DNA of 64,000 nucleotides, from the NCBI RefSeq assembly GCF_000743535.1, contig NZ_AVCJ01000034.1:1-64000 (forward strand), read 5' to 3'. This DNA comes from Arenimonas donghaensis DSM 18148 = HO3-R19 (GTDB taxonomy: Bacteria > Pseudomonadota > Gammaproteobacteria > Xanthomonadales > Xanthomonadaceae). Both the position numbers and the translations under genes were made by a program. The notes under the pieces were generated by a model, which did not search any database, was not told where the DNA came from, and worked only from the letters and a program-made list of their open reading frames with translations. Shown here piece after piece: positions 424-36,809 of the stretch (position 1 is its first letter; each line of letters starts with the position of its first letter).

Positions 424-1595
424 TCAGGCTGACACGGCGAGACTTTCGCGGTGGTAGATGCGTACCGCCAGCCAGGCAACGATCACGCCGAGCAGCAGGG
501 TGCAGCCGAAGCTGAGCGCGAAGTCCAGCAGCGCCACCGATTCGCCGCGGGCCAGTTCCATGATCAGCAGGTTCTGGGACAACAGCGGCGTCGCCGACAT
601 CCACAGCTCGCCCTTCATCGGCGACACCATCAGCAGCACCGACGGGATCATCGGCAGCAACATCAGCAACGACAGGTAGGTCTGCGCCTCGCGATAGCTC
701 TTGGCATAGGCCGCGACCACCGTCTGCAGCGCCGCGAACACCATGGCCAGCGGAACCATCAACAGGCCGGCGCGCAGGATCAGCGATGCGCCGAAATCCA
801 CCTTCATGCCCAGCCGGTCCAGGGGGATGTACTGGAAGGCCACCGCGAAAGCGACCAGGCTGAGCATCATGCTCACCATCGCGAACCCGAAGGTCGCCCC
901 CAGCTTTCCCAGCACGATCTGGGCGCGCGAGGCCGGGCTCGCCAGCAGCGGCTCGAGCGACTGCCGCTCGCGTTCGCCGGCGGTGGTGTCGATGGCCAGG
1001 TACATGCCGCCCAGGAAGGCACCGAGGATGAGCAGGTAGGGCAGGAAGCTCATCAGCTGGCCCGCGCGCTGCTGCACGCTGGCCAGGTCACGCTGGGCGA
1101 CCACCACCGGCGAGAGGATCGCGGTATGGATACCCCGGGCGCTGACCCGCAGCGCCGACTGCTGCCGGGAATAGGCTTCGAGCAGGCCGGTCAGGCGCGA
1201 CACCGGGGCGCGCGCATCCTGGTCGGAGCTGTCGTGCAGCACGAGCAGCTGCGCGGTCTCACCGGCCAGCCAGCGCGTCGGGTAATCCGCCGGGATCACC
1301 AGCACCGCCTGCGATTCACGGTCGCGGATGACCGCTTCCGAATCGGCCGGTGCCGGCTGCACCTGCACGTCCTGCCGACGCAGCCAGTCGACCAGGTTGG
1401 GAGCGTGTTCGGCGCCCACGACCGGGATCTCCAGCGGCTTTTCGGCGCTTGAGAGCTGCTTGTTGATCATGAAGCTCATCATCATCACGAAAAAGACCGG
1501 ACCCAGCAGCGGGCCCATCACCAGCGCGTTGAAGACCGTCTTGCGGTCGCGCAGGTTCTCGGTGACTTCCTTCAGGAAAACAGTGATCGCGGCGC

Positions 1596-1599
<4 letters not shown>
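424..1599 (-). CDS. natB: ABC transporter permease, NatB/ABC-2 type
   Basis: This is the membrane subunit of an ABC-2 family exporter; NatB proteins extrude sodium with NatA in Bacillus, but the substrate here is unproven. The protein has 391 residues. A first membrane segment at about 25-45 is followed by a large external loop to about residue 180, and then by five or so hydrophobic segments in the C-terminal half. The segment TTAGERERQSLEPLL, typical of this family, precedes the second membrane span. The start codon overlaps the stop of the ATPase gene upstream by four bases (ATGA), which implies translational coupling. It is last in a three-gene minus-strand operon. Confidence 0.85.
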
Positions 1600-2326
<727 letters not shown>

Positions 2327-36411: not shown

Positions 36412-36591
36412 GGGCTTCTCCGGTGCATGGCGCACGGCCGCCGCCCTTCCCTCGGAAGACGACGCGGGCGTTCAAGGCACCGGGAGAATGGAATACGGGT
36501 GTCGCAGGGACCGAGACGCGCCGCCACGACACCGGCGCCGTCTCCCCCCGGAGACCTCTGGGCCGGTCACCGCGCGTCGTGCTTCGCGCGG
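36412..36591 (-). promoter_or_regulatory. nrdA leader between aptamer and start codon
   Basis: This is the gene-free stretch between the riboswitch and nrdA. On the minus strand it holds a 7-bp-stem hairpin (CCGCGCG / CGCGCGG, 36570-36591) directly next to aptamer P1, and a second (GTCTCC / GGAGAC, 36540-36555). No T-tract follows either, so I cannot tell whether control is by termination or by translation. No NrdR box was seen. Confidence 0.5.
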
Positions 36592-36776
36592 CTGTCGGCA
36601 GGTCTTCGGACTCGTGGACGCGAGGCGGGCGCCTCTCCTACTGGCCGTCGCTTCCCGGGACCCCAGGTCCCAGTGCTCTATGACGGCGGTCGTTTCCACA
36701 TACCGCTGCGGGGCAGTGCCGGATTCGAACCGGCTTCCCTATTAACCCAAGCACTTGTGGCACCCGGGACCGACAG
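36592..36776 (-). promoter_or_regulatory. Cobalamin (AdoCbl) riboswitch
   Basis: Read on the minus strand, the element has all the class hallmarks. P1 is formed by CTGTCGG (36776-36770) pairing with CCGACAG (36598-36592). The core AATAGGGAAGCCGGT continues through TGCCCCGCAGCGGTA (36747-36701). The B12 box GTCCGAAGACCTGCC lies at 36611-36597. In this family, binding of the cofactor represses the downstream gene. Here that is nrdAB. Confidence 0.95.
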
Positions 36777-36780
36777 CCAC

Positions 36781-36809
36781 AAGATAGTGGGGTCGGCGGA
36801 AACCGTCAA
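36781..36809 (-). promoter_or_regulatory. Sigma-70-type promoter for nrdAB leader
   Basis: TTGACG (36809-36804) and TATCTT (36786-36781) are separated by exactly 17 bases on the minus strand. The expected start near 36774-36776 coincides with the first bases of riboswitch helix P1. The -35 contains the TGA stop of the upstream amidohydrolase gene. Confidence 0.7.

Follow-up and report, generated by a model that had tools for sequence, protein, structure and literature searches.

Why should a ribonucleotide reductase that does without vitamin B12 be placed behind a B12 sensor? The question is raised by the nrdAB operon of Arenimonas donghaensis, which lies within the first 64,000 nucleotides of contig NZ_AVCJ01000034.1 (the window, throughout this article). 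A sequence-only reading of the window had proposed that a cobalamin riboswitch controls these genes and that B12 is the switch between two routes to deoxynucleotides, the other being the B12-dependent class II reductase NrdJ, predicted to be encoded elsewhere in the genome. We argue here, on the strength of sequence comparisons, that a cis-acting cobalamin riboswitch very probably keeps nrdAB expression low while adenosylcobalamin (AdoCbl) is plentiful.

A full-length cobalamin riboswitch upstream of nrdAB

At the gathering thresholds, cmscan detected a single RNA family in the whole 64-kb window, Cobalamin (RF00174), with a match on the minus strand at positions 36789-36580 (117.5 bits against a gathering threshold of 31.5, E 8.1e-29) that covers model positions 1-189 of 189 and is thus full length. 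The core is closed by the P1 helix, delineated from the Rfam match and the comparison of leaders, in which GGCTGTCGG (36778-36770) faces CCGACAGCC (36598-36590) with nine complementary bases per side, the final two bases of the 3' strand doubling as the first two of P13. The proposal of a complete riboswitch on the nrdAB strand, originally placed at 36592-36776, is thus borne out by the Infernal search, and its boundaries were nearly exact, P1 spanning 36778-36590. By its membership in RF00174, apparent from the score and P1, the aptamer is predicted to sense AdoCbl. Riboswitches of this family feature a kissing loop between L5 and L13; in the window, only about three bases in the loops of P5 and P13 appear, by eye, able to pair.

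Between the end of the aptamer and the ATG taken as the nrdA start (36411; the longest open frame begins with GTG at 36435) lie 168 nt. On the same strand follow nrdA (36411-34033, 792 aa), nrdB (34033-33023, 336 aa), which overlaps the end of nrdA, and then queF. The large subunit scores 728.7 bits against the NrdE/NrdA equivalog TIGR02506 (cut-off 341.05) and contains an ATP-cone domain, while the small subunit stays under every NCBIfam cut-off in the profile search (best 254.5 versus 309); its Tyr110, which we take to be the radical tyrosine, occupies the position of the HSEMYS/HSETYS tyrosine when aligned with two eukaryotic R2 chains from the PDB. The equivalog match, the ATP cone and the aligned tyrosine fit the class Ia, B12-independent label that NrdAB had been given.

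Promoter and putative expression platform

The leader contains one promoter-like site on the minus strand, compared with a mean of 0.0 in shuffles: a predicted -35 box TTGACG (36804-36809), overlapping the stop codon of the upstream amidohydrolase gene, and, after a spacer of 17, a predicted -10 box TATCTT (36781-36786) inside the Rfam match, the pair matching at 9 of 12 positions. TTGACN is kept as the -35 box in most relatives. In a comparison of 58 loci, made without a shuffle control of its own, a site matching at 8 or more of 12 positions is found in 56 (the exceptions being L088 with 7 and L128 with 6), and the -10 box ends 6-9 nt into the Rfam match, again in 56 (L107 and L128 deviate). 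Since the -10 box lies inside the match, transcription should begin within or next to the 5' strand of P1.

Past the aptamer, comparison of leaders delineates, on the same strand, a P13-like hairpin CCGCGCG/CGCGCGG (36570-36591), helix A (CCGGC...GCCGG, 36532-36566) enclosing hairpin H1 (GTCTCC-GGGG-GGAGAC, 36540-36555), hairpin H3 (CTTCC-GAGG-GAAGG, 36445-36458) ahead of the ribosome-binding site, and CCGGAGA (36417-36423), which contains the likely Shine-Dalgarno GGAG of nrdA. Alignments comprising the window and 46 of the 57 riboswitch-bearing named loci described below (L101, L103, L115, L118, L119, L123, L128, L129, L132, L139 and L145 were left out as members of other clades or as misfits to either pattern) show pairing in 97.6% of cells for 26 Lysobacteraceae-type sequences and in 92.4% for 21 Rhodanobacteraceae-type sequences, with both sides changed in 7 of 18 pairs, including all six of H1, and in 11 of 20 pairs, respectively. 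None of 500 shuffles reached these values, apart from the count of further pair types (55/500 and 19/500), in a comparison that favours the structure because it was drawn from the very sequences tested.

In the window, the 5' arm and loop of H1 contain TCTCCGG, a stretch exactly complementary to CCGGAGA at the ribosome-binding site of nrdA. Moreover, the five inner pairs of H1 carry a pyrimidine on the 5' side and a purine on the 3' side in 128 of 130 cells of the Lysobacteraceae type and in 101 of 105 cells of the Rhodanobacteraceae type, compared with P13 of the latter group, in which both orientations occur. The bias and the complementarity match the needs of an anti-Shine-Dalgarno arm, a role that we infer for the 5' arm of H1, with the proviso that common descent could give an equal pattern. 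P13, helix A and H1 together likely make up the expression platform, and the same elements (AGTCTCCGGGGGGAGAT) are present in the leader of G027, whose NrdA is 30% identical to that of the window. Downstream of cobalamin riboswitches, an H1-like hairpin accompanies 11 of the 15 that precede reductase genes (it was missed in L007, which has a shortened loop, L009, L018 and L031), as opposed to 1 of 15 others, the single case being L010, whose gene is lost to the contig end and was not identified. These proportions speak against H1 as the platform of all B12 riboswitches in Lysobacterales.

Two further candidates were discarded. A Rho-independent terminator as the switch is disfavoured by the lack of any terminator-like site (hairpin plus T-run) in the leader, and the global fold of the leader (z -0.91, with 21 of 100 shuffles as stable) was not used as evidence of structure. 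The 5' end of the leader also offers a possible helix, CTTGTGG/CCACAAG. As a separate observation, the motif GCGG[A/T]GGGC occurs soon after the aptamer in 9 of the 15 cobalamin riboswitches not known to precede reductase genes (L002, L013, L014, L020, L028, L029, L030, L032 and L033), where an alternative hairpin with a G-rich loop is possible.

B12 genes of the same genome

The predicted nrdJ gene exists: in the 2.98-Mb, 51-contig genome, it is found on contig 15 (573.5 bits against a cut-off of 399.95; product read as 720 aa), separate from the window. A genome devoid of nrdJ would have refuted the sequence-only reading, and this refutation fails. The genome has two cobalamin riboswitches, the one in the nrdA leader and another on contig 48, behind which lies the gene for a TonB-dependent receptor whose best family is the B12 receptor, at 427.8 bits, below the cut-off of 599.7. 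Profile searches of this genome for CobI/CbiL, a corrin-ring step, and for a CobA/CobO-type adenosyltransferase found neither; apart from this BtuB-like receptor, a PduO-type adenosyltransferase (PF01923, 208.1 bits) and the methionine synthase MetH (1706.3 bits) are present. Given that CobI/CbiL was not found while MetH and the PduO-type enzyme were, the simplest reading is that the organism is likely a B12 scavenger with NrdAB in reserve, its two B12 switches governing uptake and the B12-free reductase.

The riboswitch and nrdJ among relatives

So is the association between the riboswitch and nrdJ a peculiarity of this genome? Among 61 genomes of relatives, including that of A. donghaensis itself, 30 have a class I match, recognised by hits to the nrdJ model that fall below its cut-off (the weak ones in G047, G049 and G050 being left out of the count), and 28 are testable, the contig ending within the gene in G041 and a gene piece lying on a small contig in G051. 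A riboswitch is located on the same strand no more than about 1 kb upstream at 26 of the 28 loci, and 25 of these 26 genomes encode nrdJ (in G003 as two pieces), the exception being G033, which is 72% complete. The two class I loci that lack a riboswitch, also when their regions were rescanned, belong to G043 and G053, in which there is no nrdJ match over the cut-off.

Within the genus, a class I match occurs in 11 of 27 genomes; of the other 16, some of them incomplete, 15 have nrdJ matches only and G016 (81% complete) has none. Class II is thus near-constant here and class I optional, such that the effect of B12 would be to turn a reserve enzyme on or off instead of choosing between equals. 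The comparison of relatives supports the logic of the sequence-only reading, with this one refinement. In G009, a riboswitch with an H1 hairpin lies at a contig end, and the gene is cut off.

The riboswitch fronts three NrdA lineages that are 28-33% identical: the one in the window; a second in G027 and G032, whose proteins share 85% identity with each other and 30-33% with the window; and a third in G042, with 33% identity to the window and 28% to G027/G032. In a phylum sample of 110 genomes, of which G145, G159, G174, G195, G197, G201, G209 and G221 went unscored, a riboswitch is found, among the matches listed, upstream of a class I gene at a distance of at most about 1 kb in G000, G036, G229 and G230 and of 1.3 kb in G182; each of these five genomes encodes nrdJ. 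Five other genomes possess both nrdJ and class I, with all riboswitches listed and none near class I (G156, G163, G189, G214 and G225). Among the nrdJ-less genomes with class I, none of the 15 that could be scored has a riboswitch at the class I gene; in G143, G164, G178, G181, G185, G205, G217, G226, G233 and G237 all riboswitches are listed, and G151, G177, G213, G218 and G245 have no riboswitch at all. From these counts, nrdJ looks close to necessary for an nrdA riboswitch, and not sufficient.

A search with NrdA in species genomes yielded 80 named loci, the nearest being those of Arenimonas, of which 74 were scored (L120, L134, L135, L140, L142 and L143 have less than 350 nt upstream; L076 and L138, with about 656 nt, were kept). 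This sample overlaps with that of the relatives; for example, the genome of L068 has the nrdA and nrdJ coordinates of G008. The riboswitch is present at 57 of the 74 loci, with aptamer scores of 78-123 bits, and absent at 17. The nrdJ gene is encoded in the genomes of 54 of the 57 riboswitch-bearing loci compared with 6 of the 17 others (11 lack it), counting as present the nrdJ of L093, in two overlapping pieces, and of L144, also in pieces, each piece being below the cut-off. The riboswitch occurs without detected nrdJ in L095, filed under a cyanobacterium, and in the draft metagenome-assembled genomes (MAGs) L117 and L118; nrdJ occurs without the riboswitch in L078 (Stenotrophomonas sp. ISL-67) and in the myxobacterial or myxobacteria-like L136, L137, L138, L141 and L144. 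Restricted to Lysobacterales, 11 of 12 riboswitch-less loci are in genomes without nrdJ. Thus, the riboswitch and nrdJ mostly occur together among relatives. On the NrdA protein tree, with the doubtful nrdJ states of L095, L120, L132 and L142 set aside, the riboswitch state changes three times and the nrdJ state five times, and a sign test on the 4-5 independent pairs has no power (p = 1): the table is large, and the independent events are few. In two nrdJ-less clades of this tree, the aptamer is absent or decayed.

Several loci in this sample deserve separate mention. L118 has back-to-back cobalamin riboswitches, at 1093-1334 (minus strand) and 1448-1695 (plus strand), one directed to metE, whose N-terminal part scores 331.7 bits against TIGR01371, and the other to nrdA, so that a single control region serves two B12-free isozymes. 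L103 has a similar back-to-back pair, at 960-1256 (minus strand) and 1360-1600 (plus strand), belonging to a partial B12-receptor-like gene (284.1 bits to TIGR01779) and to nrdA. The tree groups L095 (a Tolypothrix record), L120 (a Nitrospira MAG), L132 (an Acidobacteriota MAG) and L141 (a Comamonas record) with Lysobacterales or myxobacteria; these contigs are probable cases of contamination or mislabelling. L089 and L090, with neither riboswitch nor nrdJ, instead carry NrdR-box-like sites roughly 200 nt ahead of nrdA, ACACTAGATATTGTGC in L089 being an example.

Aptamer remnants in Stenotrophomonas

Ten riboswitch-less Stenotrophomonas loci keep TTGAC[GA] and CACTATCTTGTGG, which represent the promoter and the beginning of P1, at a distance of 236-316 nt upstream of the point where the NrdA match begins. 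The aptamer core is gone from these loci, and even a permissive scan (E up to 10) lists nothing for cobalamin at any of them. A mutated B12 box, P13 and H1 persist in L070 and L071, and H1 persists in L078 and L085; in the other six, little is discernible by eye beyond one later helix. The nrdJ gene is missing from nine of the ten genomes, L078 (ISL-67) being the one that keeps it. One of these genomes, G079 (S. sepilia), has an additional class I operon (L146) that belongs to the G027/G032 lineage, at 81-82% identity. The operon bears a riboswitch in the nrdJ-containing genomes G027 and G032; in G079, Rfam detects none, and the stub TTGACG-17 nt-TATGTTGTGGCCGTC is retained, so two operons of one nrdJ-less genome share the remnant. 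These Stenotrophomonas loci show that an aptamer no longer needed decays.

The single genome of ISL-67 suggests that the aptamer died before nrdJ was lost. On the NrdA tree, ISL-67 nests within the aptamer-less clade; its nrdJ falls within the family and has the longest end branch (0.23) of the 22-row NrdJ tree, with an insert that carries a LAGLIDADG domain and an intein-splicing match below the Pfam cut-off. Intein-like inserts at about the same site of nrdJ (profile position 281/282) are scattered across species: L154 (2387-5872, minus strand), L170 and L175, each of which, when checked against Pfam, has a LAGLIDADG domain and a sub-cut-off intein-splicing match, as well as G013, G058, G101, G117, G119, G140, G153, G189 and G223.

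A tentative generalisation, one that we consider possible and still doubtful, is that Lysobacterales possess a cassette, consisting of a promoter with its -10 box in the first helix, an aptamer and a hairpin that, with its pyrimidine 5' arm and its loop of the GNGG type, would act as a switchable anti-Shine-Dalgarno, which stands before NrdA lineages about 30% identical; when dependence on B12 ends, death of the aptamer would come first and loss of nrdJ would follow, with ISL-67 as a surviving intermediate that combines a dead aptamer with a fast-evolving nrdJ.

A proposed mechanism and its rivals

How, then, might the switch work? Imported B12 would be adenosylated and would serve NrdJ and also, once methylated, MetH. 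AdoCbl would bind the nascent leader and block nrdAB, most likely at the start of translation, with or without the help of Rho; a translation-level block is favoured because no terminator-like hairpin with a T-run was found. Once B12 is exhausted, the aptamer would be empty, BtuB and NrdAB would be made, and DNA precursors would then come from the iron/oxygen enzyme NrdAB.

Could the aptamer, instead, be a relic that is intact by descent and no longer controls nrdAB, this task having passed to NrdR or another factor? The five scorable nrdJ-bearing genomes of the phylum sample with class I and no riboswitch, together with the NrdR-box-like sites that stand in place of the riboswitch in L089 and L090, would agree with such a view, but the decay in Stenotrophomonas and the 78-123 bits retained across the 57 riboswitch-bearing loci make it very unlikely. 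Hardly more attractive, if slightly less improbable, is the notion that the riboswitch responds to B12 for a reason other than NrdJ, B12 being a proxy for a different cue, for instance oxygen or oxidative stress: L117 and L118 carry the riboswitch in genomes without detected nrdJ, and the Streptomyces nrdABS operon is described as responding to oxidative stress too (PMC4991794), whereas the near-strict co-occurrence with nrdJ in two overlapping samples and the absent or decayed aptamer in two nrdJ-less clades are at odds with it. The least probable of these alternatives is that the leader is transcribed mostly as an extension of the amidohydrolase gene, whose end lies 16 nt short of the Rfam match and on the same strand, the aptamer then controlling this longer readthrough transcript; against this, the promoter-like site holds a fixed place in 56 of 58 loci and is kept in the ten aptamer-less Stenotrophomonas loci. 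Control of nrdAB by AdoCbl through its own leader is the reading that we prefer.

Known systems and implications

The logic of B12 riboswitches at reductase operons is already known from Streptomyces, Propionibacterium acnes and delta-proteobacteria, and Arenimonas adds a member. For Streptomyces coelicolor, published accounts describe an AdoCbl riboswitch before the class Ia operon nrdABS, an nrdJ gene in the genome, as here, and NrdJ as the primary enzyme in vegetative growth (Borovok et al., 2006, via PMC4991794 and PMC5962746); the differences are that the Streptomyces operon includes nrdS and is said to be controlled transcriptionally, whereas here nrdAB is followed by queF and there is no terminator-like site. 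For P. acnes, a member of another phylum, cobalamin riboswitches are reported before nrdAB and nrdDG, with none before nrdRJ, most reductase then being supplied via nrdJ and much nrdAB transcription stopping ahead of the first gene (PMC3848588); the riboswitch before nrdAB is the likeness, and a single nrd-box overlapping the P. acnes nrdAB promoter sets that system apart. B12 elements before nrdDG in delta-proteobacteria with NrdJ (Desulfovibrio vulgaris and Desulfuromonas) concern the anaerobic class and not class Ia, with an equal proposed logic that, according to the same text, had already been described for reductase and methionine synthase isozymes (PMC545781). The isozyme-B12 principle has been put to test for MetE/MetH (PMC9600662), and in Pseudomonas aeruginosa effects of B12 on nrd genes are described as independent of B12-riboswitch regulation (PMC5962746); general background is given in PMC2667541, PMC8123684, PMC12013260 and PMC6461909. 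By title and the start of the abstract, we found no report of the Lysobacterales arrangement or of aptamer remnants in a literature search that covered few subscription journals. Such cases may be listed in the B12-element surveys of 2003.

These observations add an order of gammaproteobacteria to the groups in which a B12-free reductase is placed under B12 control, here in an organism that likely scavenges the vitamin. They also provide an evolutionary test: lineages that have lost the B12-dependent enzyme have usually lost the B12 sensor too, with the promoter and hairpins sometimes left behind. If the cassette reading is true, decay of the riboswitch would be the step that lets a lineage drop its class II reductase. 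The arrangement would permit prediction, from sequence, of which relatives need outside B12 for their DNA precursors, having nrdJ only, and which have a reserve.
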